Source of the DNA: Isoetes taiwanensis
Lineage: Eukaryota; Streptophyta; Lycopodiopsida; Isoetales; Isoetaceae
Assembly (NCBI GenBank): GCA_021234155.1
Contig: JAJEKV010000098.1
Span: 3,098,803 to 3,162,802, forward strand
Direction of reading: 5' to 3'
DNA: 64,000 bases
The notes under the pieces were generated by a model that saw nothing but the letters and a program-made list of their open reading frames with translations, was not told the DNA's origin and searched no databases. The position numbers were made by a program, and so were the translations under genes. Of the stretch, positions 1,758-33,478 are shown one piece after another (the stretch's first letter is position 1; each line of letters opens with the position of its first letter).

Positions 1758-3359
1758 CTAGAGCTGCCAGATAAAAGGCTTAATCTTAGGATTGATAGGG
1801 GAATTCCACATAAATCTCAGATTTTCAGAACACCTGTCCACGGAGATATCCCATTTTAAATGTAAGGAAAGAATGTAGCCTCTTGTCAGAAACTTGTAGA
1901 TCAGGCTAACTTTATAGTAATTTTTCCCTTTATGATGCCATTGGATCTCCTCATTATGCCAAATGCCTTGGCTTAAACATGCCTTGATAGCATTATAAAG
2001 TCTCCCATTCTCCTCATCCAAGTCTCTGTCGGACCATTTTCTGCATTGGGAAGGAAAATTCATAGCCAAGCACATGTTGGGATTATTTAGAATCAGAGAA
2101 GGGTTCCAGAAAATTGATTGGTCTTTAGAAAGCCCTTCTTTCCAACTATATATCTTATAAATAACCTTCCAAGCCTTGATCCATTTTTTGATGATGCCTG
2201 GAGTATTATTTGGAACCTTGAAGTCGAAAAAGAGACTGTCAGGCAACTGCATCTTGACATATCTCCAGCCAAAGGGCTTGCATCTAGATAAATAGTGTCT
2301 AACAAGGCAAGACACAGGGTGGTTGATCTTGTTAAAGCCAGCCCTGTAAATATACTTGGCTGCCAGTGCCATACTCTGCTTTTCAATATCAATAATACCC
2401 AATCCACCATTTCTCTTACTTTTCATACACTCTTTCATAGCCACAGGAATCCAAGTTCTACTAGTTCCCCCACTAGCTATAAATCTACCAAGAATGCTCT
2501 GAAGTTTGGAGGTGACCTTCTTAGGTGCTAAAAGAATGGAAGATTGATAAACATGAGAAGAAGATATAACTGAGTTAGCCAAAATTGCTCTGCCATTCTT
2601 GGAAAGAAATTTGTTGTTTATCAGATCAGCTTTCCTATTAAATTTCTCAATGATATCCCCCCATAGCTCACTAGCATTACTTCTCAAAGCAAAAGGAATA
2701 CCTAGAATTTTAGATTTAGTGATAGGAGAGATATACTCACAGCCGAGATTTTGAGCAGAATTCTGCCCTGTTACCTGATTGTATGCTATCAGCTTTGACT
2801 TGGTAGGGTTAATCTTACATCCAGATGTGTTGCCAAAGTTTTGAAGCAGCTCATGAGTGTTGGTGATTGAAGCCTCCTCCATCTTGATATAAAAGGTGTC
2901 ATCTGCAAAATGAGCATTAAGAAATACCTGTTTGTCTGGGAGCTTCAAGCCTTTAATTCTACCATCATTTTCAGATTTTTTGAGAGCACTGCTTAAGGCT
3001 TCCAATACTATAAGGAAGAGGAAGGGAGCCAAGGGACAGCCTTGTTTCACACCTCTTTTGATCTCAAAAAAAGGGCTGCATTCCCCATTGATTAGAACAG
3101 AAGATCTAGAATTCTTGAGAATGGCCAAAAAGATGCTGGTGACATCATGAGAAAATCCCATCTTATGATAACACTTAATCAAAAATCTCCAAGGGACAGT
3201 ATCAAAGGCTTTAGTGATGTCCAATTTGAGGAGGCCAATGTCTTGCTTAGTTTCTTTAGCCCAATTCATACCAATATTGGCCATCACTACATTGTCTAAG
3301 ATGAATCTATCTTTGAGATAGGCTGACTGATTGTTCGAGATGACAATGTTGAGGATCAT
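1758..3359 (-). pseudogene. LINE reverse transcriptase open segment
   Basis: A 533-codon open segment of ORF2 of the surrounding LINE. It carries the RT palm signatures LDITKAFDTVPW (motif A), GVKQGCPLAPFLF (motif B) and HFADDTFYIK (motif C with the FADD catalytic pair). KSKILGIPF and a C-terminal connection region follow. The protein would copy LINE RNA at the nicked target. This piece is open end to end, but it is frameshifted relative to the upstream linker (3,646-4,200) and to the zf-RVT region. The copy is therefore probably inactive, although it is not old. Confidence 0.92.
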
Positions 3360-4199
3360 GAAAATCTGGAGGCAATGGTGGCAGAAATGATCTTATAAAT
3401 AACATTGGTGAGGGAGATTGGCCTGTAGTCAGAAAAAGTAATTGGCTCCTCAACCTTGGGAATAAGGGCAATAAGGCTAGTATTAATTCTGCAGTCCATG
3501 GATCTGAGCATCAGAAATTCATTACACAGATTAGTAATATCAGAGCCAATAATACCCCAAGTTTTTTTTGAAGAATCCAGCAGGTAGGCCATCAGGCCCT
3601 GGGGTCTTACCATTTTCCATACCTGAGACACTTTTGAAAAGTTCCTCATTGGTAAAAAGGAGCTTTCAATGTGTCATTGTGAGTATCTTGAATAATACTT
3701 TGCATGTGGATAAAGTTGTCCATTTCAGCTTCAGAAAATTCATGGTTAATACCCATAATCTTAATAAAACGATTGGAGACAGCTTTTTTAAGATCAATAT
3801 CCTCAGAAAGAGTCATAACATCAGCTTGAATACTATAAATATGATTTCTTCTGATAAAGAAATATTTAGAGCTGGACCTTTCATCTTCCTTAAGCTCCTT
3901 AATTTTGGCTTTAAGCTGCCAACCTTTAGCAATCTTAATTTCCTCCTTTTCAATCTTAAGCTTGATCTCCTCTTGTTGCTCACGAGGGGAGGACTGAAGT
4001 TGAGCTCTAAGATCATCAAGGTACTGCTTACTTTGAGTGTGAATCTGCTTATCCCAGTTCTTGAGCCAGTTCTTGATGCTCTTAGAGGTTTGAACCCACC
4101 AATTCATCCATCCCAGCTGATTATTAGACTTGGGGATTTTGCCATAAATCTGCTCAAAGTCTTTAAGAAAACTATCATGCTGGAGCAGGGAAACATTCA

Positions 4200-4886
4200 A
4201 CTTAAAGAATGAATTTCTCTTAGTGCCATTGGGATTACCATTAATTTGAAGGAGCTGGGGGGAATGATCAGAAATGGTAAAGCCATTAAGATTGGAGACT
4301 CTATCACAACTATGCCAAAAATTTTCACTTATATAGAATCTATCATGAAGACATAGAATAGGATCATTAATTCTATGATTGGACCAACTATAGGAATTAG
4401 GCTGAGTTCTAGCAAGCTTGAGATCATGGCTGAATAAAAGATGATTCCAGGAGTTGGCCTCTTGATTGGTGAGAGGTTTCTAATTGGTACTTCTCATAAA
4501 ATCATGAGTGACCATATTAAAGTCCCCTGCCATGATACAGTTCTCATAAGGGATCCTGTCCAGACTGTTCCTAATGCAATTCCACAAAGAACTTCTTTCA
4601 CTAGGCTGGTACTGAGCATAAATGTTAACAAAGGCAAACTTTTTGAAGTTAATATCTCCATGAAGAATCTGCCACCTGCCACAACTAGCATTCATCATTT
4701 GAATATTAGAAATATTAAGACTATCTCTCCAAGCTATAGATATCCCTGCATAAGAGTTGTTAGCTTTAATAGCCCAAACTTTAAAATTAGAAGGCAAAGA
4801 AAAGGAAATTAGCTTTTCAAAATCATCATCATGAAGCTTATGTTCCTGGAAGAAAAACATGTCAGCTTTTATAGTAGAAAGACAAA
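4200..4886 (-). pseudogene. LINE apurinic-type endonuclease, C-terminal part
   Basis: The reading frame continues from 4,886 to beyond 4,200 with one stop near 4,480. It shows FFFQEHKL (the QE active-site strand), YAGISIAW, FVNIYAQY, MAGDFNMV and SDHSP, in the order of the EEP/APE nuclease family. The first strand (VSWNLQG) is absent here but present at 21.9 kb. Joining the two across one copy of CAAA (TTTG on this strand) keeps the frame open. That is the main evidence that the intervening 16.9 kb is an insertion. Confidence 0.9.
4883..4886. repeat. Target-site duplication CAAA, left copy
   Basis: CAAA directly precedes the left terminal inverted repeat. The same four bases follow the right one at 21,832-21,835. 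One copy is required to restore the LINE frame. Confidence 0.85.
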
Positions 4887-4898
4887 AACAGAGTTGCA
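4887..4898 (+). repeat. Left terminal inverted repeat of the 16.9-kb element
   Basis: AACAGAGTTGCA is the exact reverse complement of 21,820-21,831. Similarity continues as NNN-GAAACG on both ends. Confidence 0.85.
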
Positions 4899-4901
4899 AT
4901 A

Positions 4902-4930
4902 GAAACGAGCGAGGATCGTTGAAACGGGAG
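4902..4930 (+). repeat. Left subterminal GAAACG repeats
   Basis: GAAACGAGC (4,902) and GAAACGGGAG (4,921) lie just inside the left terminus. GAAACGGGAG recurs, also as an inverted pair, inside the right terminus. Clustered subterminal motifs of this kind often serve as transposase-binding sites; that role is inferred here. Confidence 0.6.
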
Positions 4931-7900
4931 CAAAAGGAATATTCCTCGAAGATTCATTTTTTTTTTTCAAAAAAAGGGCTAAAATGAGGTTTAAAAAAAA
5001 AAAAAAACATAAAACTGTATCTTGACCCCCTCAAAATCACTAATTTTGTTGTGCAATGAGAGAATTAGCTATTTCAAAGTGACACTTTTCTAGCAATAAG
5101 AATTTGGATGAAGTATGTTTTTAGAGAGAAGCTCTAATTTGAGGGAACATATATTTTAACCAAAACTTTAAGTGAAGTTTACAACTGAAATTGTAGTATT
5201 TTCAAAAATTGAAGACAAAATCTTCACATTCACATACAAAATTTACAGTCTTTTTACAAGACTTAGTTATGTACAAAAGTGTGAGGAGTGATCACAGAGG
5301 GATCCAGCACATCTTCATCCTCATTTATGCCATCTTCATCACCTTCGCTTCTTTCGCTGTCGCTTGAGGAAGTGCTTGAGTTATCTTCCTCGTCATTTGT
5401 CAGCATCGGATTTTGAAGCATTACCGTAATCTTCTTCATCTTCTTCCTCGTAGCTACATGCCTTCTTAAGTAAATTGATTGTTCTCTGGCGTAAACGATT
5501 GTCAGATTTCAATTTGAAATCATAACATAGAATACTCACTTTGCATATGTCTAGCTCATCCCTATTACCCACTCTCTTGAGTTTTTTCCCCTTGCCTTGA
5601 CTTTTCATTTCTAAATCATATCTCGCCTTCAAAAGCATTTTACGAGCGTGTAGCCATCCAATTGAATCTTGAGTTTAGTCACCAAGCCTTCCTCTTTGAT
5701 GTGGTCAAGTACTTTTTTGCTATCGAAAGGTCGCCCTTTATCATCGTCCTCGGTCGGGTAGCAATCAACATACCTTTGGTAATTTACGTGATATTACTGG
5801 CGGGCTCATTTTTTGCGTCTTGGCGAGGTACATGACCCGATCCTCGTCTTTCTTGGTGGTGCTCTACCGGGTGCTCTTGTAGCATTGCTGGCCTGCACGG
5901 TTAGGAGTTCGTGGAAGGCATTAGGCCAATGGAAAGCTTCCTCCATTTGCTTTAGAGCTAAGTTTTGATTCACAATCGTTTGTTCAGAAAGAAGCTTCTC
6001 CACCACATTTGGTCTTCTTCTAAGAAGTACTTAAAGCCCGAGAAATTCCACTTTCAATTGCTTTTAAGGAGTTAGCCGGTGTTTTTTCTGCTGCTTTGAC
6101 TCTTTTGGGTTTTGAGAGGAAGCTTTTCGGCACGTTCTACTAAGCAAGTGTCGGGGAATATACTTAAGGAAGCAGAACCCCTGGGGTGGACTCGATCTTT
6201 AGTAGTGGTGTATTTCTTCCCTTGTAAAAACTCTGGTCCATCCTTCAAGTAAAAACTTGATGTGGTGTTGAAACGTAATATCGTTCAACTTGTTCCACGG
6301 CTTGTTCTCTAGAGCCCGTCGAGAAAACAAATTCCCTAAAGTCAGCAGTCTCCGGCATGGGAGTGTAAGAGTCTTCAATGATTTGAACCAAAGTAGGAAG
6401 ACAAAAGCCTTCTTCCTTCTTAGACGAACGGAAAATCTGCTGAACATCTTGTCTATCGATCATGAGTGTGCCCTACAAGTAAGAATCCAAGCTTGACATT
6501 TTGAAGATCCCTAGCTCCACTAGCATGGCACGGTAAGCAAAGAGTGTTTGATTCTTGTTCTCCCCGTAGTGTTGTCAAGGCTGCGGTGTAGAGCAGCGGA
6601 GGTAATTGCTCTTGCTCACAAAGCACCTTATTAAGAATTGTAGAGGTTCGGGTCACCATGCAAGTTAGGATAAAGTCAAAAACACATTGCACTTTAGACT
6701 TCCTTTGAAGACCATAGCTCCAACAAAGGTGGACCTTAACAAAGCATTCCTCGGCACATCTTTAGGAATATTCAAGAAATGAGGAATAGTAGTCTTTTCT
6801 GATCCATCCCATCAATCACAAAGACATATCTTTGCGCAGTGGGACGTTCAAGAGCTTTTTTCTGTGCTTAGCAAGCTTCCTTCTCTCGGTCGCTTGTTGG
6901 TCACTTGTCTAGCAAGCTTCGTTTTACGATATCTGATTCAAGAATTCAGGTCAAAACAATTCTTTTGAAACAAGTTAGAGAATGAAGAACTTCAACTTAC
7001 TTTTTCGACCTCGTCTTTTTGCGGTTTCTTTTTGGCTCTTCAATTCTACACACGTTGAGCACCACGGACATCCTATGTTTTTGGGAATTTTCACAAGACC
7101 AAACTGAATTTTCCATAGTCTAGTGAAGTGAGAGTAAGAGATATGTTGAGCCTGAGTGCATGTTTCTTTGTCTTGGTTGAAGACATCTTTTTTGTGATGT
7201 TGTCGTCCAAATGATACATTTTTTGTTTGGCTGACTTTTCACGCGTCTCTCTAAAATATTTCTCCATCAAGCTCTGACACCTAAGGCGTGCATTGTTACA
7301 ACTCTTCCGGCCGCAAAAGTGATCATCAATTTGAGGGGACTTTATCCAATTGATTGTATTGAGACATTCTAGTGGACCCTAGGCGGTGAACAACCACAAA
7401 ACATTTCAAGCACACTTGTTCACCTCTAATGTAGTGCAAGAATGTTTTGCGTCTGGGCCTTATCTTTGTATGCCAAGTAGGCATTTTGATCGATAATGTC
7501 ATCGAACTATACACGTTTCTAATTTCGAAGTTTAGCCATGTTCAATTTGGTGATGCAACCCAATGAGCAAAGCATCTAGTAGTTCTTAGAATTCTCCTCA
7601 TTTTGTTCTCGTCCATAAGGTTTTTCCTTCTCACGGATGAACATGCTCTCAATCCATAATCCACCACTGAATTTAAGGTAGTTTACTGGAGAACATGTAA
7701 TCTCATTGGTCGTTGTTGCCTTCATCTTCGGACGAGAGTTCTACTCTTGCAGTGGCCTCCTCTACCCTCACTGGTGTGTTTCTAGAGGAAAAGAGGCCTC
7801 GTGAAGTCATTCTGGAAAAGGAGGAGGCACGGTGTTAAATGTAGGAGATGGGCCATAACTTTGTTGTGGTAGCAGATGTTGTGGCAGCATCTTGTTGAGG

Positions 7901-8015
7901 AGTTCTTGTAAACATATCTCTTACTGCACTTTGAAACTCTGCAAACCCATGTGTCACAATATTTGTGTGTCGAGGTGTTGAAGCTGCAACATCATCCTCA
8001 TTTGTGTTGAAGTCA

Positions 8016-8019
8016 TATT
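8016..8019. repeat. Target-site duplication TATT of the nested 4.4-kb element, left copy
   Basis: TATT precedes AACAAGGTGAC; the second copy is at 12,444-12,447. Keeping one copy restores an open frame in the surrounding gene. Confidence 0.8.
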
Positions 8020-8053
8020 AACAAGGTGACCTAGCAAACGCACTAATGACCTG
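8020..8053 (+). repeat. Left inverted repeat of the nested 4.4-kb element
   Basis: AACAAGGTGAC, three variable bases, then GCAAACGCACTAATGACCTG. This is the reverse complement of the right end except at the three variable bases. Confidence 0.8.
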
Positions 8054-8419
8054 CATTTGCACCACAAAAAGGAATCTTTCAAAGATTCCCTAAAAAATAC
8101 CATAAATTGCCGCCACTTTTGGGGGGTCAATTAAAAAAATGACCCTAAATTTACGAATTTGGTAGCTATTTTAGGGGTCAAAATTACCAAAAAGTTGGCG
8201 TCTTGTTAATTTGACATCCCCATCTAATTTAGTTGTTTTCGGGACACATACAAAAAGTGGCAAAATGAAACAACCAGCAAATTCTTGACAAATTTTGAAG
8301 ACAAAAAACATTAAAATGGAGCCATTATGCATTTTTATTATTCAAGAAAAGCACACATGCTATCGTGCATGGGCAAGGCACAAAAAATAAAAACACAAAA
8401 GAAACAAAATTACCAAATT

Positions 8420-11400
8420 GCTATGCGCCATAGCGAGGGGATCCTAAGTTTGAAAGACAAACATTGTACAAGTCATGTACGGTGTACAAATACTCAAATT
8501 TTAGTAGCTTACGACCTTTAAGAAGAGCGTGTATTGGAATGTCGTCAGTACTCATCAACTCCTTGATTTGGTCATCACCTTAAACATCTACCATTTTTTG
8601 TAGTTCAAATTTAAAATTGCCCTCCATTTTAAATGCAAACTTCCATTTTTGGGTGTGATGCCATAACATGAATTTTTGGATTTCAATATGCATATTGGTG
8701 TATCAAAACTTAAGTTTTAGGTGTTTTGCAAACTTAAGATATCATGCTAAATCTGGGAGACTACAAAAATCATAATGAATACCACATTGCCAAAAGTTCA
8801 GATGAATGTCCTAAGCATTTCATGGTCACATGAATTTTACGTTTTACAACATTGAAAGTGGCAACAAGGCTCATATATAAGTTATTATAATATTAACATT
8901 ATTGTGAGGCTATGCGTGCATAGCACTATGACTACACAACAATATGTGATGTGGTGGATGTTTGTTAAAGCATTGTGAGGCTATCAGCGCTAGGAAGGAC
9001 CGGTGGACTACACACGAGTGTGAACCATTGGAAAGAGTGTTATAGAATTAACAATAATGCAAAATATCATGACTTAGCACAACGTTATGCATGTGTATAC
9101 CCTTGGCTAAGGAAGACAATGTTACTGAGCTATCTAAGTAGAACCAACTTGAAGACACGAGTTGTCACTTTGCACACCAAAATGTTGTCAAGCTAAGTGC
9201 TCATAGTAGGCCTAGTCAAGAAGATATTGTTAGGATACCTAGATTGCAACCTTTTGTGTAAAAAAAAAAGATAAACAAATAATGGTAGGTTGGGAGGAAA
9301 TTAGGTAGGTAGAAACAAGAACATGGTAGAAAAAATGGGTGGGTAGGAGGTAACACGGTAGGTAGGGGCTATGCGCGCATGGGCAAGTTTTCGATGCTAT
9401 GCGCGCATAGCAAAGTTATACCTACCGGAATTACGTAAATCGGCTTATTGACACGAAGTGAGGAGGAAGATCTTCCTTTCGGGACATTTTTGTTGCATGA
9501 GCCATTTCGGGAGATTTTGCAGCCATTCGGCATTTCGGGAGATTTCGGCATGAGCCATTTCGGGACATTTTTTCGGGACATTTCGGGACATTTTTGGAAG
9601 ATAAAGGAATCGAAGACCTTGCAGTCGTACATGAGCCATGGCTGAGATCTAAAGGTTTGGCCGAGCTATTCCTTGCTTGCTATCCTTATGCTCTGAATAT
9701 CTTGTTTTCATTCTTTGAATAATAGGGTTTTAGATTTGGACGGATTCGAAGGCTTTGTTCGCAGAAGAGCAGGTCGAATGTAGTAATAGGGCGAGATCTT
9801 GAAGTCAGACCTCTTGCAACTGGAGATTTTGCAGCAGGCTTACTTTCTCTAACTCTAGCATGATTGCTGGTAAGAAGATTCTATCTATTGATCTATTAGT
9901 TCTGCCGTTTCTACTCTGAAAACTTATGGAAAAGCATTATAGGACAATCTTGCAGATGAATTTGTTCCTTTCTCTTTTGTAAGATGAGGTTTGAGGTGAT
10001 TTAGAAGGTGATTTCGCAGGTGGATTTTGATGATTTTTCAAGCACTTTCAGGTAAAAATTTGAGATATTCTGAGTTATTTCTTCTCTTTGCAAGTAATTT
10101 CTAGAGCCAGATGCCTGTACTTGCTTTGTTTCTGGAACAGCAACTTGCCTTTAAAAGCATGTTCAGTTAAGTTTATGATTTAAAGAAGCATGTTCAGTTA
10201 ACTTTATGATTAAATTCTTTCAACGTAGTAATTCACTTACGAGTTTTAACATAGTTTTGTTTAAAAATTTGCAGCTAGAACACTTAGTTGCAGGGATATG
10301 ATCAGCATTCTTGGCCTTTTCTTTTATCTGAACTGTCTACCCATGCTCAAGTAAGGTTCTTAGAATATTGTTATAATTCTAGCAAGATCAATTATTTCTG
10401 AAAGATCTCAAGGATTTAATTATTTGGATTCAAGGACCAAGAGGGCTTTGAAAATTTCCTGATTGTTTCTCAAAGGTTTTCCCTCTACAGCTGTACGTAT
10501 TCTTCACATTTTAATTACATTCAATGGAACTGTGATTTTAAATGTTAGCTATGTGTGCACAGCCAAGAGCTTTTAAATATTGTTGCTTGTCTATGCGCGC
10601 ATGGACAAGCGATATATTTTAAAGCTCTACCCAGGCTAGATGTTGACAAAACTAGGTGTTATAGAAATGACATATTATTTAGGAGTTCCTTTCTATGCCC
10701 ACATAGACAAGTGGTACTTTTTGTTTTCGTTGATCCTATGCGCTCATAGGCCATGCCATGAGCTTCTATTATTTGGTCTTTAGTTCTTATTGGGAAATGT
10801 TGAGCAAAGATGCATCAAATTCTAATGCTTGTACACCAGTTAAGAAGTCTACATTTCCGCTTACAGAAGCAAACACCTGGTTTTATATATATTATGTAAA
10901 GATGAACAATTGATCTTTAAAGACTTTAATGTCAGTTGATATGTTGCTTGCTTTGTGATCTTCCTGTAGTTACTTGCTTTGTGATCTTCCTGTAAGTTAA
11001 AAAATATAATAAATGTTGCCTTTTGGATTTCTCATTCGCTTCAATGCAATTCAAATGTATAAATTTTTTTTTTCTACAACTTGTGTTTATGATTGTCTTC
11101 ACAAATGTGGATGTTTTACATTGCAATTAGTCCTTTTAAACATAGTTTACATTTGAGACCAGGGAATAAATTACTAATCGCATATTTTTTATTAGCCAGA
11201 ATGACTTTAGCTAAACTTGCTCGATATTAATCCCAAAACTTTCTGTGGTTTAGCTAAATTCTATATATTTTCCCTCTCATACTTTCTAGCGTTTAGCTAA
11301 ACTAACCCAAATATCATCCCAAAAATTTCTATGGCGTGTCCAACAGAAAATATTATACTTGTTTTCAATTGTTTCCACTTATTCTAGTCATTTTTTTTGT

Positions 11401-12218
11401 GAAAACATTCTAAAATAATGCTAATTAGCAAAGTCTAGGACTCAAATTAATTCATAATGCTAGAAACTAAACTATTAATCATATATTTCTTATAAACTAT
11501 ACTGATGTTAGCTAAACTAGCCCAAAACTCATTCTAAAAGTTTCTATGGTTTAGCTAAACAATACAAAACTTCACTCTCTTACTTTCTAGCGTTTGGCTA
11601 AAGAGCTCCAGAGTTGGTGCGGTCCCGAAAAAAGTTAAGCTAAAATTATTATTTTTTTCCCAATTTTTTCCATTTACTTTAGCCAAATTTTCTTGAAAAT
11701 GTGCTAAAAAATCACCAAATAGCTAAGTTTAGCCCTTAAATTATTCCATGTTTGAGACTCTACAACAGGCATGAATTTTAGATTTGAATTATGCTTGTTT
11801 TACATTGCTATTAGTCCTTTTAAACAAAGTTTACATCTGAGACCCTAAAACAGGCATGAATTTTAGATTTGAAAAGGGAATCCACTTGATACCACTGTTA
11901 AAACGATTGACGAAGATGACAACAACAAAGAAAACCTTCATGCTAAGCAAGTTCCACTTGATATTTAAAACTCTTCGACCTAATCGAGTTCAAGTGCCAT
12001 TATTATTTATTATTTGACTTGCATTCTTTCTAGAGTACTTAAAATTGACTATCTCTGTCTATGCGCGCATAGACAAATCGCTATTCAAAAAGGTTCCGCT
12101 TGACGCTTAAAAACGAAATTGGCCTTGTTTAATGCAAATGTGATGATTACATTTTCATGAGCTTATATCTCTCCTACGTATTTGAACTAATGTGTCTCTC
12201 TCAATGCGCGCATAGGCT
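8420..12218. repeat. Dispersed palindromes, consensus GTCTATGCGCGCATAGAC
   Basis: Copies lie near 8,420, 8,909, 9,369, 9,396, 10,548, 10,590, 10,692, 10,735, 12,057 and 12,203. The best are GTCTATGCGCGCATAGAC (12,057) and GCTATGCGCGCATAGC (9,396). Others carry one to three changes, several of them compensatory (CCTATGCGCTCATAGG, GCTATGTGTGCACAGC). The only other copy I found is at 51,952, in a relative of this element. Confidence 0.8.
9470..9600 (+). repeat. Short tandem repeat of CATTTCGGGA(C/G) units
   Basis: About eight imperfect units, some joined by 'tgagc', lie inside the nested element. An open frame across them (CPEMSRNV-type repeats on the minus strand) is a composition artefact. 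Confidence 0.7.
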
Positions 12219-12410
12219 ATGTGTAATGTATTTTGCAATCTTGTATCATAAAAGCCCATTTTTTGTTCTACTTTGACCACAATATTTTTACGCACTCCAA
12301 AAATGGTTCTTTTCAATGTGCAACCTTTTTTTTTGTTCTTATGTTTTAAAAAATATGCCAAAAGTACCAAATTTTGGTGTTTTTGAAAAAGGAATCTGCA
12401 ATTGCACCAC

Positions 12411-12443
12411 AGGTCATTAGTGCGTTTGCACCGTCACCTTGTT
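12411..12443 (-). repeat. Right inverted repeat of the nested 4.4-kb element
   Basis: CAGGTCATTAGTGCGTTTGC, ACC, then GTCACCTTGTT. The flanking TATT is at 12,444-12,447. The inner extension (12,391-12,410, GGAATCTGCAATTGCACCA) is conserved at 51,750-51,775 in inverse orientation. Confidence 0.8.
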
Positions 12444-13287
12444 TATTGAGAGAAGTTGTGGTGAATCTCGTATTCTTCAGACCGTGCAGCAGACCTTGCA
12501 CTTCTATTCGGTGATGGAGATACGACAAAGGGTGGGGGGAGCCTGTTCCGAGTAACCTTTGCATGTGGAGCCAGTGCACTTTCGGGGGAAGGAACAAAGG
12601 GTAGTGGAAGCATGTTACATACAGGTGGTGATGGAATGAATGGAGGGGGATACCTTTTTTGTGCGAGGACTTGGTGATTTGGAAGGGTTGTGGCAACTGT
12701 TTGTTTGTTTTACGGACTTCGGAGTGTCGAAGACGAAAGCAACGAGGAGGTTGCCGAGGAGCGAGATGGAGAAGAGGTGGTATCATGACAAACAACGTCC
12801 TGGACCAGGGCTCCCTCCGAACTGGACGAACTAGATACTACAAAAGGTGGTGGTAGCTTGTTCAGCACGCGGTTAACCATCTTACAAAGCTGCAAAGCAT
12901 TTGTTAGACATAAGTAAAACACAGAAGTGGTGTGCATTTTGTATTCGGGAATACAAATTGAGTTGTCTCTGTGAAAGGAAGGAAAAGCGTAAGACAAAAA
13001 GAAAGCGCAAATGTATTAGGAATACCACGGTGATTGGCCAATTATAACGTCTTGTATTGATTTCACATAGAACTTGGACAAACGTGTCAGCGTATCTTTA
13101 AAAGGAAAAAAATGCGCCCTCACTTTTCTATTCGACTTAGCAGCTCCGGTCCCCGGACCAGCGCCTCTCCAAATTTTCACTTTCGAGCCGTATTAGATTT
13201 ACATAGGCATACCATGGACGGGTTAGTGCGACTTGTCATTTGTGCGTGCTTTTAATCATTTAAGTTAGACGTACTGTCCTTCTGTCT

Positions 13288-13612
13288 AGCCAAAGTGCAT
13301 TCCCGAATACATTTTTGCTTTCATTGGTAAGCCAAAGTGTATTCCAGAATACACTTTGCCTACCAACTAAAGCCGAAGTGTACCGGGAATACACTTTTGG
13401 CAATCCGTCAAACCAAAGTGTATTAGGAATACACTTTTGCTTAACGATAAAAGCCAAAGTGTATTCCGAATACACTTTGCTTAACGATGAAAGCCAAGGT
13501 GTATTCGGAATACATTTTGGCTAAACGATCTAAGAAAAGTGTATTCCTGGGAATACATTTTGCTTTACTTTGTCGCGGCAAAAGTGTATTAGGAATACAC
13601 TTTTGCTTACTT
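13288..13612. repeat. Array of eight palindromic repeats, period about 41 bp
   Basis: Each unit has arms AAAGTGTATT / GAATACACTTT around a variable 0-4-base centre (CCC, CCA, AGG, CC, CGG, CCTGG and others), separated by about 18 bases related to 'gcttaacgatgaaagcc'. A lone degenerate copy lies at 12,941-12,958. The array is in the presumed leader or first intron of the transposase-like gene. The same motif recurs in introns of the methyltransferase-like gene. Confidence 0.85.
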
Positions 13613-15616
13613 TCAAGGATTGCAATGTTTTTCCTTGTTTTAAGTGTCAAACGCTTGTTTTTCCCCGCTTTTGTTACTTTAGCTGATTATCCCGCTCTAG
13701 TTTACGTTTGCTAACGACACCATTTTACAGACCAAAACCGCCCTGAATAACAACCGCTAAGAAGATCGTGAAGCTTGTCACAAAGAAGCACCGACCACCG
13801 AAGAATCAGGTGGCCCATCCGGAACCAACCGTCTCTGAATGTTTCCAAACTCGGTGGTTCTTTACTAGAGGCCATGGGGGCAAAGTACTCCACACTCACA
13901 TTCTTACACGCGTCAGAAGAGTCCGGGGACAGCGTTACGACGACGACGTCGAATTCCAGTGCATGGGCCATATAAAGAGTGTTGAAAGTGTTGCTGGGCA
14001 GTCTGGACAGCGCAGTAGGCTGTCATTTAATACATCACAGGGGATGTTTGTTCTTGATGAGGCTATGTTGAGGTTGCATTAGAGAAAATATGGGGTCTTA
14101 GAATATCCTCCTAATAAATACTTGAAATTCCACATCAGATTTTGCAATCCACCAATAAGGAGCTTGCTCTTTGTTCAAATGGCATGTCTACGTGGCTAAG
14201 GAAATGCCCAATATATTTAGAAAATAGTGCAAAAGATCTCATGAAGATACGCTAGATATTTGAGAATTGTGGTTAGGTAAGATAGGGGAAATAATTACAA
14301 GGCATTTCTATCATCGAGCATCCAGTAGTTATTATTACATTTAAAAAAATACACAACTCCATTTCGTATCAGCAAAATACGTCTCGAATTTCTCGCAACC
14401 CATTTTCGATTCCCTCTCCTTCCTATCTCCCTATCGAAAGTCCTTTCCGGTTCTCTCTGTTCCCGTTTCCCTCCATTCAGGCTTCCCTATCTCCATTGTA
14501 ACAGGCTGCTTTGTGTTTTGTAATCGATCGTGGAAGCTTGCACTGATAATTTTGCATTGAGAGGTTTCTTGCCATGAATCTTTACTGACATTTTTTTATT
14601 GTCTTGTAGACGATGTCAAGAGTAGGATATGAACTGAGAGCAATCAGTTTGCATGTTTTGGAGATCTGTAAGCATGTTCAGTAACCTGTTTTATGAAGCA
14701 TGTTAAGCAGATAGGTAGATGATAATTCTGGTTTGCATTTTGTCTAACTAACTGTATGTATCTTATTTGATGAAGTAATGATTGGTTTGTGCAGATCTTG
14801 GAGCAAAGCGGACAAGCATAGCCGATGTATGCAAAAATTGATTTGGCGTGCTTTAGCTGTATCTGATAGCTCCAGCACTTTTGCAGGTTATTACTTATTT
14901 GCCAAAAGCCTCTATGTAACTAATGTGGTTGATACAAAATGTTATGGGAAAGCTGGGACCATTTACAAACAAGAACGTAAGCCATGCTTTATTGTGGCTC
15001 CATTATCCTTACACAGTGGCTTTGCCTTAAGGCCCCAAGACAAATTGTTGTATGTTTGTGATATTTCTTGCATTTAACATTCTGCATAGCAGTGCATGAA
15101 GAGCAGTGCATGAAGTGCTAGGACTCTAACAAACTACAAAATCTACTCATTCTTCTTTCTGCTCCAACAGATTCTAAAACTGCATGCCAAATAGTTGGTT
15201 TTACAAGGTTCAAATCCTTGGATAATGGATATCTGAATATGACTGCGTTAAATAGTTCATGATAGCCCTTTTTAATTCTTTTGGTGATCCTTTAGATCCA
15301 TATTACCCTTAAGAAGAAAGTTCAGTTTGCCTTGAAGGTTTGTTTTCAGTTTGCCTTGAAGGATTGCTGGTCTTTGTGGGATGATTTGGCATGTATCCAG
15401 CACATGCATACTGCCCAAAGTTAGATGCAGCGTGCAGATGTTAACCATATGATAGTTGTTAGTATGTAGCTTAGGTTCTCTACTCCATCTAGTTTTGCCC
15501 ACCATTTTGGATATGTATCAGAATAGCATGTTTGGATGTGTATCAGAATAGCAATTTGGATGTGTATCAGAATAACTTGTTTGGATGTGTATTAGAATAA
15601 CAATTTTGGATGTGTA

Positions 15617-15838
15617 TCAGAATAGCTTGTACTGATGAAGCCAGTCAATAGCTCGATTCCAGTCTGACCTGGGAATGGATACAGCCTGCAGAAAAATACA
15701 ACTTATATTGTAAGGTATAATAAGGCGTGAATTTAACATTATACACACCAAATCTAAAGCCAGATTTTTCTTACCGTAACACCAGTAATCGCTTTTATCC
15801 TTTGAGCTCCAAAGCACTTCTCCGGCAGTACAAGCCAA
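15617..15838 (-). other. Possible two-exon coding fragment of unknown identity
   Basis: On the minus strand, a segment ending in ITGVT is followed by GTAAGAAA. A TTTTTCTGCAG acceptor precedes AVSIPRSDWNRAIDWLHQYK in the same phase. The splice sites are good and the joined frame is open, but it is short and I do not recognise the family. It could be a relic of the gene captured in this segment, or chance. Confidence 0.25.
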
Positions 15839-16150
15839 ATCATTCTCGTTTGCCTCTAATAATCAGTTGAACAGAGCAGAGTTTTGGATTTCGTATAGAA
15901 AGTTTGGGATGAAAGTACTTCTAACATTTTTCCGAGAAGAACAAGTTCCCTATTGTTCTGGTGAATTTAATTCACGCGTTGAAGCTGCTGCACTGGGCAC
16001 GAAGTAAGAAATATAGAGCTTACTCATCAAATTGGATATGTTTTATGTTAGAAACAAGTGTATACTCTAGATATAGGACAGAGAATCAACAAAGGATGTT
16101 TAAATTGTTGCATGTTCCAAGGATACAGGTGCATGCTGCAGAATGATTAG

Positions 16151-16597
16151 TTGTTACCTTTGGTGCTAAGTATGATGACGAAATTTGTGATGTGGAGCCG
16201 ATTCAACCCTCCTTATTTGTTCTCCATAACCACAACCACAGCTCTGTTTCTGCTTCTCATTATGCTGTATCATGGGGGTTACATCTCCAACCCCATTCAA
16301 TTTGAAGGGAATCAAGCAATCCCACATCTTATTGATCCCTCTGACTGTCTATCTTCAGCAGATCTGCCAGGAAAATTTCATGGGAAGTCTACTGAGTGCC
16401 CTGAATGTCTGAACCCTCTGAAAGTGTACATGTATGATTTGCCCGGGAAATTCAACTTAGACTTGCTTGTAAGGAATAACCCAGGGCAGCCACTACAGAA
16501 GAAAAGCCTGCCTAAGCCGATTAACTCAGGTTTAAGGAAGCAACACAACGTTGCATACTGGACAACGAGATCCATTACTCCTGGTGGAAAATTATAG
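16151..16597 (+). pseudogene. N-terminal fragment of an exostosin-like (GT47) glycosyltransferase
   Basis: A 148-codon open frame begins with a short cytoplasmic stretch and one hydrophobic segment (residues about 24-41, SITTTTALFLLLIMLYHGGY). That is a type II Golgi membrane anchor. A stem follows, then LKVYMYDLPGKFNLDLLV (residues about 92-109), close to the K-[IV]-Y-[VM]-Y-[DE]-LP-x-x-F motif that opens plant exostosin/GT47 domains. The frame ends at about residue 148 (TTRSITPGGKL), far short of the 400-500 residues usual for the family. No downstream catalytic part is visible on either strand. Full-length relatives add sugars to cell-wall polysaccharides. This is probably a captured first exon. 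Confidence 0.55.
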
Positions 16598-18422
16598 CAC
16601 CCAAGCAACAAAAGCTCTTGCCTTGTCTGCAATAAATTTCAGCATCTAATTACCATTGAAGACATAAACAATCATTGTCAATTATGAAATATTGCCATCT
16701 AAAAGTAACACATACATCAGGAAGAACATCCATATAAAGACCAGATGAAAGTGTGCAGCTAAATTATGGCCAGTTATGCGCAAAAGAGAGTTAAAGACTG
16801 CTAGAACTCATCAACATAATCTTCTTGTTGAGCAGATAAAGTAACGGGATCCTAGAGCTACACATTCCAAAGAAGCTCTGTCATGAATCATGATCCATCC
16901 AAATTGATAAGTTATCAAGCAAGTAGAAATGTCTAACACCTAATCTAGCTAAGAAGCTATCACATACCTTAAGCACATGAAAATATTCAGATAGATACTA
17001 TCGCCACAAATCGCATATTTGCATGACTATCAAATGCAGCCAGCAACATCTTTCCTGCATCAAACAGGTGGCTAAAGCTTGTTGCAGAATCTCATAAACA
17101 AAAATAGAACTACTTTCAAATCGCCTAAAAGCGCAAAATAATGTTAAAGGCTGAACACAAATTCTTACCTGTATGATCCGATGAGCAAGAACACATTAAG
17201 CCATTGCCTCGCTTCATCCAGAGAACAATCAGGACAAACACAGGCACGTCATCAAAATTCCCAGAATGAAAAGCAGGTTTCTGAGGCCTAAATCCGCATT
17301 CAAAAGGGGAAATTTTTTGACATAAAGAAGTGCCGAAACTGAGATCCAAAAGCTTATCTTGAAAAATAGGAAACAACATGTTCTACCTTTTCGAACAGTT
17401 TTTTGTCTATCAGAAGGAAGCTCTGCATCATTTAAGATGAATTGCCATTGTTTCTGCAGATAACTCAGCAGCCTTGTGAATCCTTTTGCTCATAAATCCT
17501 GGTTAGAATTGTATATAAGTCCAGGGAGTTGAACCCTGATAGACAAAAGTGCCTATGTCCAATAGCATGTGGCAAGCACAGTATAATGCCACATTGCATA
17601 TCACAAAGCAAAGATTCTGATCAATGGAATTAAAACGTACTTATCAAGTTGATCACAAGATCCAGCAGTTTAACACTATGAATCTCACAGTCAATTGATG
17701 ATGAATCAAAGCCCTGTGCCCAGAAAATAAATTGTAAACTAGAATGGAACAAGGAAAATTACATGTAGAGCCTATTCCCCTGTTTTAATTTCGAAACTCT
17801 GAGGAGGACAATGAGGTTAGGACGCTTCTCTTCATCCGAGATCCTAAACAGTAGAAACATTTTATAGATAAATATGAAAGACAAGGAAAGCCAAATCGAT
17901 TTTACTAAGCTGCCAAGGTACAACGGTGACCTACAAAGAATAGGAAGAAGCTGGGACTTGGCTATGATGGTGGTGAGGGGAAAAAAAAAAAGAAAAACAA
18001 GAATAATCCTACAAATGGAATTTTTTTTGTTGTGGGAAAAAACGAAGTTTGTTTTTTTTTTCCGAACATTGCCGTATCCACAAATCCTTATTAACTCATT
18101 TTCCCAAATTTTGCTTTATATAGGATTAACTTTACCACAGCCCCTCGAGGTAATCTTTGAAATGTCATATGAAAGCTTTTAAATATGCCATAGACTTCAC
18201 ACACTCTTGAGATCTTATCCCCTAAAAGTCTTTAAATATTGCACGCTTTCAAGAGTCCACGTGGCAGCAGGGGAGCAAAAGAAGGAATAAAAGATTTGAA
18301 AGGGGGTGGGAAAGATATCACAGATTTGCCTTCTTAATGCCAAGAATTGACCCCTAGCCTCATATTATATTTTTCCAAAAAATACAATAAAAATAATTTA
18401 TAATTGCTTAGGGGGACACCAA
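16598..18422. other. No gene recognised
   Basis: AT-rich sequence with short open frames only. A minus-strand frame at 17,125-17,379 contains KISPFECGF but is not credible as a mitochondrial nad3 copy. Poly(A) and poly(T) tracts occur at 17,980 and 18,050. Confidence 0.5.
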
Positions 18423-18487
18423 GAGACCCCATTTTTTCTCTAATGACTAGGGTACAACCAACTCCACTTTACAAGTATGTGGCACAC

Positions 18488-18495
18488 TATATAAA
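18488..18495 (+). promoter_or_regulatory. Possible TATA box of the methyltransferase-like gene
   Basis: TATATAAA lies about 50 bases inside the end of the GT47-bearing segment and upstream of the acidic N-terminal coding stretch. The upstream part of the open frame (from 18,404) may therefore be untranslated. Confidence 0.3.
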
Positions 18496-19459
18496 CAAAC
18501 AAACACTGTTGTCCATTGTACACACTGTAAGTTCTTCGTTTAGTGAAGATTTTACAATTAGTGACACAGAGGAAGAACAAGTGGAAGGCACTAGCAGCCC
18601 ATCTGATAATGAAGGGAGCAAAGAGGATTTTGTGGAGCAAGAGCCACGAAGGCAAGTGCCACGAAACACTGTTGCTGCTAAAGAGCCAGCTAAGAAGAGA
18701 ATGCAGGCATTAGTGATATCGGAAGAGCCAGAAGAAGAACCAAAACAAAAGAAGGCAAGAGGAAAAAACAAAGCCCCTAGTGTGGCTATTAAAGAAAAGA
18801 AGGTCGGCAAGACCTCAGAAAAAATGGCAGCAATAAATAGGGAAAAGCTTGTGCAAGGTGTGATATATTTGCAAGTAACATCAATGAAGCCGCCACCAAA
18901 GAACGAAAACGGTGAGAGGCCTCTTCAAGTTTGGAAGATTTATGCAGATCATTTAAGGAACTTGAAGGACAGGATTAGGAGCAATCCGTATGCTCATGTA
19001 GCTCCTATAGTTGTGCTAGTTGACAGGCAACAGTGCATTAACCCCGCCCAGTATGACAAGGAAAATGCGGATACCTACACGCATTATGTGTTGGGGGGAA
19101 CCACAGCTTCAAAGCAAGGAGGCAACTGTACAAGGAGAAGTTCAACGCGAGGTATCTGACGGTTCTTTGTGCAGTATATTGTGGCCTTACCGACGAAGAA
19201 GCTAAGATCGTTGCCAACACCCACAATGCGGACAACGAGTACAAATTGAAGATGAGCTTCGTGGACAAAATAAGGTTTATGCACAGAGAATTTCTTATAT
19301 TTAAAGAAAAATATATGACGACCTAAAGAAGCCAAAGATACTCCTTGAGCTCAAAGAGGCGCAGCCATAGAGTGTTGTCTAAAAAGCGGCGAGGACAACA
19401 AAAGGACCTCTCTTATTGGCCATGACAACTGGTTCCAGCTTGCTTTTAGAGAAGGAAGG

Positions 19460-19545
19460 GTATGTCCGCATTTTAGTTCAAGTAGCTAGTCCCAGCATTC
19501 TATTCCAGAATACATTGTACTAACGCCACTTGTTACCATGTTTAG
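19460..19545 (+). other. Intron in the methyltransferase-like gene
   Basis: GTATGT donor, TACTAAC branch-site match at about 19,519-19,525 and TTTAG acceptor. The intron itself holds a degenerate palindrome copy (TATTCCAGAATA). A well-formed plant-type intron argues that the gene has lived in a eukaryotic genome for some time. Confidence 0.65.
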
Positions 19546-19874
19546 ATATGGGATTTGCAAAACGAAATTTTTAATATGTTCGAGCGCGGAGACCTCAAAA
19601 GTAAGGGCAAAGTGACAGACAAGAAAAAAGGATCCGATGTTCCAAAAAAAGAAATGACTATCACTGTCTGGAGAGTGCTTCAAGGATTTACAGACATTCC
19701 GTTGTTAGAAATGTTACTGCAAAAGGTTGTGGACAAGGAATTTACATTAGAAGAAATGTCGAAGGAGTTGCACAAGTAAGTCTTTTAGAAAGTTTAGTCT
19801 TTTGTGTCAACGCTCTGTACAGTCCAAAAACTTTAGCCTTACAAATCCGTCTGCAACGCTGAGAAACTGAAGCA

Positions 19875-19993
19875 AAGCCAACGTGTATTCCGGAATACAC
19901 TTTGGCTTAAACAGTAAAGCCAAAGTGTATTCCGGAATACACTTTGGCTTTAACAGTAAAGCCAAAGTGTATTCCGGAATACACTTTGGCTTT
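19875..19993. repeat. Three palindromic repeats GTGTATTCCGGAATACAC inside an intron
   Basis: Three near-perfect copies separated by 'ggctttaacagtaaagcc', itself partly self-complementary. They belong to the same family as the array at 13,288-13,612 but are far less diverged. The intron runs from 19,776 (GTAAGT) to 20,043 (CTGTAG). Confidence 0.9.
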
Positions 19994-21783
19994 TCTTGTT
20001 TGATGTGGTGTTGTTTTGTGATTGCGATAAAGTTCTTCTGTAGACGTGTCCCTGATGTAATTCTTGGTTTGGATGTTGCGACCGGTAAGAACGTCATTAC
20101 ATGTCAAACATGTTTGATGGAACAATTGAATGTGCAAACATGGGAACGGTGCAAGGAGCTTTATCCTATTGCTACATCTGACGAGAGAATTGTTCAGTAC
20201 GCTCCAAATTTTGAAGGCTGGGTAAGCCTGCTTTGGGCGTTTAGGTAGCGTAGATTTGTAAATGTTCTAATTATTTTGTGGATTTACAGAGTAAGAAGAA
20301 AAACAAGGACCTACCAGAAGGTTTCATGCACCTGGTAAGGATTGCTTTCGGGAAGAAAGAACTTTGGCAAGAAGCTGCCGGATTTGTAGAGGTCGCAGAA
20401 AACGGACTATGAAACGTTTACTTTATTCGACCAAAACAATCTTTACTCAATTGTATATGGGAACCGCACCAAGCTTGTAGCGAAAGTGTGAAGCCACAAG
20501 ATTTCACGCTAATCATTGCCTGACATTCCCTACGACTTCAAGATTAAAGACATCGACACGATGACATCCTTTTAAGCATGCGGATTTCAATGAATTCATA
20601 AAAGGCTTAATGAAGATCACTACAGACTAGAAGGTTAGTGGTATTTCACTCAAAGATGCAAGCTGGTCTTGTCGGCCGACCAAAAATCACTTTGGATCTC
20701 CGACCGTCGTTCGGGTTACGAGAACTTAGTCCGCACGCCAGATACGGAATACACTACTTGTTATTTTCTTTTGTTGCTGACCATTGACCTTTCTCTTGAA
20801 GGTACAAAAGCGAATATAAATTATCATGGTGGAGGCCCCGTGCTATTAAGCAAAGTGGAATATCTCAGACGTTGTTCTTACCGGAGCTTCGATGGCAAGA
20901 GGACCATGGAGCATTTCAACACTTCCGCGACCTTGCGACTTCTCAAATGTTTTAGAGTTTCCCCGCAGTTGTTACAGAAGGTAAAGACCCGACAGAGTGC
21001 TGGGGCGTAATTGTGAACCACTATCGAGGCCCCAAAACTCATCAACCATCTCATTGACATGTTTTCTCGTCCAGGAGATTGGGTGCTTGATGCGTTCTCT
21101 GGCTCTGGTACCACCATTGCATGTGCACTCAAGAAGGGCCAAAATTGTGTGGCTGTGGACATAGACAAGGAGGCTGTGAACTTCATTAAGATGAGATTGG
21201 CTGTCTTACCAAACCTTCCTGATGAGAATCAAGAGCTAGGCACCAAATCCTCATCTGATTATGCCAAGATGACATCATCAGAGATTCAGCCACCTCTCAT
21301 GAGCTCTGTTGACGAAGAGGTTGTTTTTGTAGAGCTAAAAGAAGTTGCTCCAGTTGTTAATCCAGAAGACAAAGCTGAAGAAGAACGGGTTAATTCATCG
21401 GACAAGCAGCAGTCGACAACAAAAGAAGAGTCTGAGACAAGCAAGAAGGGTGATGACGAGTATATCTTGGACCTTTGAATTCAAAACTGATTAATAAATT
21501 ATTGTTAGCATTACAACACCACTCAAATTTGATGTGTTACCAAAATATCCGAAATATTTTTTTTTTTTCATCCCACAATTGATGGTTTTTTTTGTAATAC
21601 TTTGATAGATTTACATTGCATTTCGAAAATTTGCCCTTTTCAAGTATGTTGTTTTACAAAAACAAGTTCTCCCCTGCATGAGGTGCCAAAATTAGGGTAA
21701 AAAAGAATTGAACTATTGAAGAATCTCAACCTCAGCCCAAAAAGATCACTTTCTGGATCATGTTGTGTTTTTTACAGGGAATC

Positions 21784-21819
21784 TTTGAAACGGGAGTTGT
21801 GCAACACTCCCGTTTCAAA
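21784..21819. repeat. Right subterminal hairpin of the 16.9-kb element
   Basis: TTTGAAACGGGAGT (21,784-21,797) and ACTCCCGTTTCAAA (21,806-21,819) form a perfect 14-bp stem with loop TGTGCAAC. It directly abuts the right terminal repeat and contains the GAAACGGGAG motif seen at the left end. Confidence 0.85.
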
Positions 21820-21835
21820 TGCAACTCTGTTCAAA
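21820..21835 (-). repeat. Right terminal inverted repeat and CAAA target duplication
   Basis: TGCAACTCTGTT (21,820-21,831) followed by CAAA (21,832-21,835), matching 4,883-4,898. Confidence 0.85.
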
Positions 21836-22700
21836 CCTTTAATCTATCCCTTTTCACATTAGAATTAATGCCTTGGAGATTCCAAGACACACATCTAAGA
21901 TTAATATCCATAAAAATTAGTTTTCTTAGAGATCCTTGAGCTTCTCCTAGATGGCTCAGGGGTCTGTCTTCTGCTGCTTTTCTTTTTTTCTGTAGTAGGA
22001 AACAATTTGCCAAGGATTTATCATTTCTTCCCTTTCCAGGTCCTTATCAATGATGTATTCCAAATAAGCCTGCTCAGATAAACCAGTCTGATTACTGTCA
22101 TAAGGCTCATCCTCATGGGTTTTTGGATCTTGACTCTGGTTGCTTGGATCCGAGTTGTCTTTATCTTCAATGATTTCTTCAATGATGACATTGCTATTAG
22201 TCTTGTTACTGCTCATCTGATCATTCCAGGGTATACAAAGTTGGGCTGGCACAATTATCTTCACCACTTTATCATTCTCCTTGCTGCATTCTCCCTTCTC
22301 AAAAGTGTTCTCTTTTCTCAGATCCCTTTTAGGGCCCCATTCTTTCCTTCCATGAGCTTGATACATAGGAGCTTTTCCCTTGGAATTATCCTTTTTAGAC
22401 TCAATAATTGGGGTTTTAGAGTAGCTGATCTTGATATCCAGGAAGGTGTCCTCATCAATTCTTGAACCAACCTAATGCCATGGTCCAGCACAAAGGTCTC
22501 TCCCAAAGGATATTTCCCAGTCTGATTGCAGCAATCCTGGCAGCCGCAACCTTGGCAATTGAAACTCTAGACATGATGCTTAGAAGGAAAGAAAGGAAAG
22601 AACAAATTTGCAAGGAAACTTCAGATGGGCAAATAATGCCTAGTACCACAGTAACCACTGAACCACTTTGCTCCAACACCTGAGAAGAAAGCAAGTAGCC
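21832..22700 (-). mobile_element. LINE, upstream part (ORF1 C-terminal region and start of ORF2)
   Basis: On the minus strand, an ORF1-like segment has a Cys-rich stretch (CQGCGCQDCCNQ, about 22,555-22,520). A hydrophilic acidic region follows and ends in WQIVSYYRKKEKQ (22,366-21,956). ORF2 then starts with CVSWNLQGINSNVKRDRLKV, the first strand of the endonuclease domain. It stops exactly at the 16.9-kb element. Rejoined at CAAA, the frame continues without a gap into CLSTIKADM at 4,880. This is therefore one LINE interrupted, not two copies. Confidence 0.85.
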
Positions 22701-25992: not shown

Positions 25993-26404
25993 TCCTAGGA
26001 TGGGTCCTATGATAGGCATATACTGGCCGAGTGAAGTGGTGTTCTCATTGAGCTTTGTAAAACATTGAGTACAAATGATCCCTCACTAGGGGTAGATAAA
26101 TTTGGAAATATGAACTTTAAATGCTCCGAAACTAGACAATCATCGAGAGCATGATGATACTAAAGAATACAACATAAAAGATAGTTTTATCTGCCACTTG
26201 GTCGATGCAAAGGTGAGAAGACCTGGTGACTGCTTCTCATTGGGAAGAAGAACCACGCCTCCTTAGGTTCTTGAGGAAAACCCAAGCAAATAGTTGAAGC
26301 ACGACCCTACGCACTCTGGCAACCACAAGACCTTAAAAAATCCTGCAGAGTCAAGGCTGAAAGAAAAATAACCCGTCAATGAGTTAGATGCCATAGGCAA
26401 GAAG

Positions 26405-26635
26405 ACTCGGAGGCTCCAGGGCCACGCCGAGAAAGAAACAACAGCCGACCAATCGGGAACCGTCCGCGGAAAATGACCCTCGCGGGAAAAACAACCGATT
26501 AGTGCTGCCTCGGAGGCTACGTTGCCACGCCGAGAGAAAATGAAAAAGAGTTGTGCCTCAGAAGCTAGAGTGCCATGCCGAAAAAGAGTAAACTAATAAG
26601 TATGCCTCAGAGACTACAAAGCCACGCTGAGGAAA
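26405..26635. repeat. Tandem GCCTCGGAGGCT / CCACGCCGAG units
   Basis: Four diverged units, each beginning CTCGGAGGCT or CTCAGARRCT and closing with a CCACGCCGAG variant, so each can fold on itself. Spacing is about 55-110 bp. Confidence 0.6.
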
Positions 26636-26845
26636 TAAAGAATGCAAATTTAAAGGACATAGAAAAGAAAAGGAAATAACGAACATGATCAAATGCAAAA
26701 ACCATCCAGGGAGGGAGGGTGAGAGAAACTGATAGGATAGAGAAGCAGGAGAAATCTAGCTCAAGAGAATGTCGATGATAGAATAGTGAAGAGAGGCTGA
26801 ATAAATAGGAGGAGTGACAAAGGGACGTCCCCATCCAAGGAATGT

Positions 26846-26873
26846 CGGTTCTATTGCTGTCGCAATAGAACCG
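26846..26873. repeat. 3' hairpin of element A
   Basis: CGGTTCTATTGC-TGTC-GCAATAGAACCG, identical to the hairpin of element B. Confidence 0.85.
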
Positions 26874-28298: not shown

Positions 28299-28525
28299 TG
28301 AAATAATGGGAATAACGACATCAAGCAACAAAGTGGAGTAACCTCGAGCAACACACAACTGTCTTACAAGAACAAAACATAATAATAGAAAACGACATAG
28401 TAATCGAAACATAGTAATGAAAAACAACATAGTAATCGAGAACATAGTAATGGGAATAACGACATCAAGCAACAAGTTGGAGTTTAGAGCAACAGACAAC
28501 TGTCATACAAGACAAAAACATAGTA
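28299..28525 (+). repeat. About 140-bp tandem duplication inside element B
   Basis: ATGGGAATAACGACATCAAG followed by a CAACA...ACAACTGTC...ACAAGA block occurs at 28,309 and again at 28,450. Shorter 'cgacatagtaatcgaaacatagtaatg' repeats lie between. Confidence 0.7.
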
Positions 28526-30049: not shown

Positions 30050-30435
30050 CTAGGTTGCGCTAAAAAATCCACAAAATTGGTTGGCCGGCTTAGCCAAAAT
30101 TCACGTGGCAGGTGAATGATAAAAACAAATTTGTCTCAGTTGGGCTCGAAAGAAAGCACAAAAAATATTAAAGGGCAACATTAAAAACCAAAATACGACG
30201 CATACCTAAGTTGCTCTCGAAAATTCCACAAAAAACATGGCCAACATTAAGAAAACGAAAAATAAAACCATATCTAGTCAGAACTCGCATGGCAGGTGAA
30301 TGAGAAAAAAGCAAATTTGTCCCAAGTTGTGCTCGAAAGAATCCACCAAAACATCGAAGGGCCAATGTGCTCAAAAGAATCCACGAAAACATTGAAGGGT
30401 CAACATTAAAAAACAAAAAACAAGACTGATACCTA
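30050..30435 (+). repeat. Diverged direct repeats inside element B
   Basis: 'tacctaggttgc...tccacaaaa', 'cgtggcaggtgaatga...aaatttgtc' and 'aagggcaacattaaaaa' recur two to four times. Confidence 0.6.
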
Positions 30436-30546
30436 GATTGCTCTAAAAAGATAGCATGCTAGTACCCCGACCAAGGACCACTCTGGCAAGCCAATCAAAC
30501 CCCATGTCTTATAAAAAGAAGCAAAAAACAACCAAAATACAGATAA

Positions 30547-33472: not shown

Positions 33473-33478
33473 TGGCAT

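Follow-up and report, generated by a model that had tools for sequence, protein, structure and literature searches.

Structure of the element and its insertion site

The window analysed here, a 64-kb stretch of the genome of the quillwort Isoetes taiwanensis, contains a large insertion within a long interspersed nuclear element (LINE). The interval 4887-21831 is confirmed to hold a DNA transposon, which is delimited by terminal inverted repeats (TIRs), a 4-bp target-site duplication (TSD) and restoration of the interrupted reading frame. Two genes lie head to head on its opposite strands, one for a DUF7869 protein that is likely the transposase and one for a ParB-like protein with a predicted DNA methylase domain. 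Taken together, the locus is very probably a decayed 8.1-kb DDD/E transposon with a DUF7869 transposase and a putatively self-marking methylase, most likely a relative of Sola-1, that was later hit by nested insertions. The ends of the element and the host sequence around it are as follows.

4887..21831, no strand: whole interval, comprising a core element of 8,148 bp and two nested insertions, from alignment to family copies
4883..4886, no strand: left TSD, CAAA, from the sequence and from empty LINE sites with a single CAAA (6/6 read)
21832..21835, no strand: right TSD, CAAA, from the sequence
4887..4898, plus strand: left TIR AACAGAGTTGCA, followed by the motif GAAACGGGAG at 4921-4930
21820..21831, minus strand: right TIR TGCAACTCTGTT, the exact inverse of the left TIR, from the sequence
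1758..4886, minus strand: second open reading frame (ORF2) of the host LINE with its reverse transcriptase (RVT_1, E 2.9e-25), the endonuclease part adjoining the insertion, from the joined frame
21836..22471, minus strand: host LINE, start of ORF2 and the preceding ORF, from the joined frame

The initial annotation had proposed exact 12-bp TIRs at 4887 and 21831 and a CAAA duplication, and both were borne out: AACAGAGTTGCA/TGCAACTCTGTT matches perfectly at 4887-4898 and 21820-21831 and nowhere else in the 64-kb window, and CAAA stands at 4883-4886 and 21832-21835. Its further proposal, that excision of the element with one CAAA restores the frame of LINE ORF2, agrees with the joined flanks, which read ...NVKRDRLKVCLSTIKADMFFFQEHKL... 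in a single minus-strand frame at the start of ORF2. A 193-nt query over the restored site aligned through the junction in all 40 LINE copies scored from 384 candidates, and thus the two flanks are continuous in other copies of this LINE. Six of these copies were read at the site and all have AGACAAACC or AGACAAACT with a single CAAA, as is expected of empty sites, with a substitution directly after CAAA in one of the six.

The transposon family in the genome

The genome searched is an assembly of 1,658,258,908 bases in 1,110 contigs. The 23-nt left end (≤3 mismatches) has 129 matches compared with 1 for the reversed pattern, and the 25-nt right end has 278 compared with 0, the two sets of matches overlapping in part. 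End pairs were chosen by eye among about 100 listed places per end pattern. Fifteen elements with both ends, including that of the window, range from 4.1 to 21.4 kb, and 14 of them have a perfect 4-bp TSD, with 13 different TSD sequences among the 14; the sole miss, C1095, has a mutated left TIR. Six further end pairs, up to 50.9 kb apart, gave a perfect TSD in five, the miss being C1056 (36.4 kb; AACA versus AATA by eye); the right end of C1096, also among these six, is a variant. The family therefore shares the true ends seen in the window, with a perfect 4-bp TSD in 19 of 21 end pairs. Some family ends have no visible partner, for example on C952 and C1068. The most widely spaced ends, at 30167-81071 of C1087 (L095, L096), are 50.9 kb apart and retain a perfect CTAG duplication.

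Nested insertions and core size

The window copy is colinear with the family copy on C1077 except for two interruptions.

8020..12443, no strand: nested insertion 1, 4,424 bp, TIR AACAAGGTGAC, TSD TATT with the second TATT at 12444-12447, from a sister family whose ends resemble those of the window family
14077..18445, no strand: nested insertion 2, 4,369 bp, inverted ends CATTAGAGAAAA, at most a possible 2-bp TG as TSD

Each is missing from 13 of the 14 other copies, which still have the site, while C1039 is unaligned there. The two intervals are insertions later than the core element, which accounts for 8,148 of the 16,945 bp. The transposon within a LINE and both its ends therefore stand as first described, whereas its size of 16.9 kb does not, and a single 16.9-kb unit is rejected.

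The end pattern of insertion 1 has 823 genome matches, compared with 0 for a reversed control, and all ten end pairs of this sister family carry a perfect 4-bp TSD, two of the pairs being at one duplicated site. In a tblastn search at E 1e-3, insertion 1 matched neither the transposase nor the methylase, and it is therefore regarded as non-autonomous. A 21.7-kb element on C907 (7622347-7644037; L065, L066) has ends of the insertion-1 family, the TSD TATG and a DUF7869 match inside, so that the sister family probably uses the same type of transposase, and this element is likely the autonomous partner of insertion 1. At the ends of insertion 2, no TSD was found past the possible TG. Within insertion 2 lies a fragment with a weak match to exostosin (PF03016, E 0.025), and captured host genes as cargo of the element were rejected, as this fragment sits in the nested insertion.

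The DUF7869 transposase

The transposase gene of the window copy is in two parts.

5266..8019, minus strand: main part of the gene, decayed, from PF25273 and tblastn
12444..13015, minus strand: upstream end, severed by insertion 1, the frame being open across the site in C1034 and C1095; start of the gene provisional

The DUF7869 profile (PF25273) matches the window copy at 6456-6761 with E 4.1e-5 and 23.7 bits, under the 26-bit cut-off, compared with E 1.9e-50 on the open copy C1034, relative to which the window gene has 2 stops and many indels. The predicted model of the protein has a DDE-transposase fold with SETMAR and Mos1 as the best structural matches, a PDB sequence search gave 0 matches at E ≤ 10, and a viral-structure search gave 2 unnamed matches at E ≤ 0.001. 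The third conserved acid, D164, is present in 30 of 30 loci, and the first is D42 or D45. The modelled fold and these residues indicate that the DUF7869 protein is likely an RNase H-fold transposase with three conserved acidic positions, and a putative BAH domain may lie at its C-terminus (residues about 385-495). The mariner transposases Mos1 and SETMAR have about 10% identity to it, and the mariner TSD is a 2-bp TA, as against 4 bp for the window element.

DUF7869 proteins are also found in Ceratopteris, Riccia, Adiantum, Chara, Mytilus, Branchiostoma and Antedon, where the domain is shared over most of its length and the GHTH..D and LDN motifs are conserved. Among the matches listed, these relatives are named hypothetical or uncharacterised, with one 'cellulase', and the comparison with them is one of proteins. 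A narrow literature search on DUF7869 found no publication. The annotations of P0060 (Adiantum) and P0095 (Riccia) combine DUF7869 with a domain of rve integrase or cellulase type, and these two proteins may be gene-model fusions.

The ParB-like/methylase gene

The plus strand carries an intron-containing gene, whose product would consist of a ParB-like region between an N-terminal region and a predicted beta-class N4/N6 methylase.

13747..14076, plus strand: exon 1, first part, cut by insertion 2
18446..19459, plus strand: exon 1, second part, ParB-like region
19546..19775, plus strand: exon 2, ends inferred from GT/AG sites
20044..20221, plus strand: exon 3, inferred
20290..20760, plus strand: exon 4 with motif IV (DIPY), the frame disrupted in the window copy and the 3' end approximate
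20802..21478, plus strand: exon 5 with motif I (FSGSGTT) and an inferred 5' end, PF01555 E 5.3e-14 at 21017-21475

The methylase matches PF01555 with E 3.8e-18 (66.7 bits, cut-off 26.7) and the phage methylase family phrog_67 with E 2.4e-21. Its DIPY motif lies ahead of FSGSGTT, and a DIPY-type motif IV ahead of motif I is the order of beta-class methylases. The ParB-like region has weak profile matches only and a ParB-like motif seen by eye; a PDB profile search with this half gave an unrelated coiled coil at best (E 0.16). Twelve of the 15 family copies retain an intact FSGSGTT and eight an intact DIPYG, some frameshifts in the copies possibly being long-read assembly errors.

A composite methylase probe matched three proteins, all labelled Gb_, presumably Ginkgo biloba. 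A profile of three sequences gave 24 matches, including five Gb_ proteins, unnamed ENA proteins, weak bacterial-type matches and Ceratopteris KP509_1Z236600, the last in the ParB-like half only. The bacterial protein P0142, with ParB_N and PF01555, matched at E 4e-4 over 13% of the query, and phage methylases share 24-28% identity with one Gb_ protein (best 12 of 536). The AlphaFold2 (AF2) model of a Gb_ methylase has a pLDDT of 52.6.

Palindromes occur at three places in the element.

21784..21819, no strand: palindrome TTTGAAACGGGAG...CTCCCGTTTCAAA adjoining the right TIR; the fold of 21774-21831 has z -5.3 against dinucleotide shuffles
13288..13609, no strand: array of palindromes close to AAAGTGTATTCCGGAATACACTTT, spaced by about 41 bp, in the stretch that separates the two genes, from the sequence
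19874..19993, no strand: second array of palindromes, with a period of 42 bp, within the intron that separates exons 2 and 3, from the sequence

Copies of AAAGTGTATTCCGGAATACACTTT (≤4 mismatches) are present in all 15 family copies, 2 to 15 in each, at one or both of the array positions, and with the same mismatch limit none was found in shuffles or in the rest of the window. The arrays are candidate binding or methylation sites.

Gene pairing and selection

The pairing of the two genes extends beyond this family. When the top 150 of 9,902 DUF7869 candidates were compared with the top 150 of 1,443 PF01555 candidates, 24 pairs were less than 30 kb apart, compared with about 0.8 expected from a uniform estimate and 2 in a control band of 100-130 kb. 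Of the 24 pairs, 22 have a head-to-head orientation and 17 a spacing of 5.1-6.0 kb, 2 of the 17 being window-family copies. In the methylase C-part of ten other pairs, FSGSGTT is present in all ten, and DLPYG in eight, with DLSYG in one and the remaining one uncovered at that position.

Nine usable loci of other families have 89-93% amino-acid identity to C1077 in the methylase C-half, with a nonsynonymous divergence (dN) of 0.042-0.067 and a synonymous divergence (dS) from 2.1 to saturated; between families, the median dN/dS of this half is 0.024 (20 usable of 45 pairs). For the transposase core, 30 other loci have a dN of 0.19-0.24 and a saturated dS in 28, the two closest having a dN of 0.03-0.05. 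Since the methylase dN is below that of the transposase, the C-half of the methylase seems to be under stronger constraint than the transposase core in this comparison of loci taken from best matches and open frames. Within the window family, the ratio of nonsynonymous to synonymous polymorphism (pN/pS) ranges from 0.24 in the ParB-like part to 0.68 in the BAH-like part, as values pooled over non-independent pairs. From these substitution patterns, the methylase is apparently an accessory gene kept by purifying selection.

Classification and alternative explanations

The window family has TIRs with a TSD of fixed length, empty sites and a predicted RNase H fold with three acids, which place it with the DDD/E cut-and-paste transposons. 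Sola elements are defined by a 4-bp TSD and a DDD rather than a DDE triad, and the window family has both, while the labels MuDR, hAT and mariner were rejected on the TSD length that defines each of them. The layout points in the same direction. A 2025 paper describes Sola1-1_Ec32 of the brown alga Ectocarpus as a giant DNA transposon of 21.5 kb, encoding a 1104-aa ParB-like and N4C/N6A methyltransferase protein on the strand opposite the transposase, and reports that the giant transposon families of Ectocarpus commonly contain nested insertions (PMC12477816). The window element resembles Sola1-1_Ec32, so far as that text describes it, in its ParB-like/methylase gene opposite the transposase and in its nested insertions, but differs in its core of 8.1 kb and its vascular-plant host, and the comparison is one of layout. 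As Sola1-1_Ec32 has a ParB-methylase opposite its transposase, Sola-1 is the most likely home, and layout, TSD length and triad together suggest that the element belongs to a vascular-plant, Sola-1-like lineage.

Similar ParB-methylase proteins in green- and red-algal transposons (Iyer 2011, Petroll 2025) are cited in that paper (PMC12477816); the transposons cited there are algal, and the window element is from a vascular plant. A vascular-plant ParB-methylase transposon was not found in print by a narrow literature search, of which the earlier queries missed the Ectocarpus paper. Retrotransposons with acquired cytosine methyltransferases under purifying selection are described in another study (PMC5890265), and they are likewise mobile elements combined with a DNA methyltransferase under purifying selection. 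These are retroelements with C5-cytosine enzymes, in contrast to the DNA transposon with a beta-class N4/N6 enzyme described here.

The alternative that survives best places the element outside Sola-1, in another DDD/E superfamily that is either undescribed or of a known 4-bp-TSD type such as Ginger or Academ. It is unlikely but still a serious contender, as PF25273 bears no transposon name, while the 4-bp TSD and DDD triad fit Sola and the ParB-methylase opposite the transposase recurs in Sola1-1_Ec32. Considerably less probable is that the methylase is chance passenger cargo with no part in transposon function. Its catalysis is predicted from sequence, its motif IV is atypical and the within-family pN/pS is just moderately below 1, but against this stand the head-to-head arrangement with DUF7869 across diverged families, the between-family dN/dS of about 0.02, partner-like proteins in Ceratopteris and in the Gb_-labelled (presumably Ginkgo) set, and the same layout in the Ectocarpus report (PMC12477816). 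The idea that two TIR-like words flank unrelated repeats by accident, to which the three different origins of the interior might point, is refuted by LINE continuity over the site in 40/40 copies, the perfect TSDs in 19/21 family end pairs and an interior colinear with full-length copies, and has almost no probability left.

Proposed mechanism and significance

For a Sola-1-like transposon with an accessory methylase, the following mechanism may be proposed. The DUF7869 protein would cut the AACA...TGTT ends and join them to target sites staggered by 4 bp. The ParB-like/beta-class N4C-or-N6A methylase encoded on the opposite strand would bind and mark the DNA of the transposon that carries it, with the two palindrome arrays as possible sites, and the mark might serve self-recognition, control of expression or escape from host silencing. 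After its insertion into the LINE, the window copy itself became the target of two further insertions, one of a non-autonomous sister transposon and one of a different element. The genes of the window copy decayed.

A broader reading is possible, though rather doubtful. DNA transposons with a working prokaryotic-type methylase of their own may be long-standing residents of vascular plant genomes, the ParB-like part of which would bind parS-like palindrome arrays and place N6-methyladenine (6mA) or N4-methylcytosine (4mC) as a private mark alongside a BAH-bearing transposase, and DUF7869 would be a widespread hidden transposase. The spread among vascular plants in this reading comprises the lycophyte described here, with the fern and Ginkgo-labelled proteins as hints. 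If it is true, DUF7869, which occurs from Chara to molluscs, is a widespread transposase under a DUF name.

PF25273 gains a likely transposase identity with verified element ends, and the ParB-methylase transposon layout published for algae is now seen in a multi-copy family of a vascular plant. The reality of 6mA and 4mC in plants and their writer enzyme are debated, and a transposon-borne enzyme at a defined locus makes this question testable. In the annotation of genomes from lycophytes, ferns and gymnosperms, such 'hypothetical proteins' could be relabelled as mobile-element genes.

Other features of the window

Outside the element, positions 26001-34000 have a strong, strand-asymmetric AT skew (0.46, 0.41, 0.36 and 0.21 in 2-kb bins). 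Two exons of other genes lie on the minus strand, one for a major intrinsic protein of aquaporin type at 45911-46330 (PF00230, E 1.4e-16) and one for a dihydrouridine synthase at 63164-63574 (PF01207, E 2.9e-17).

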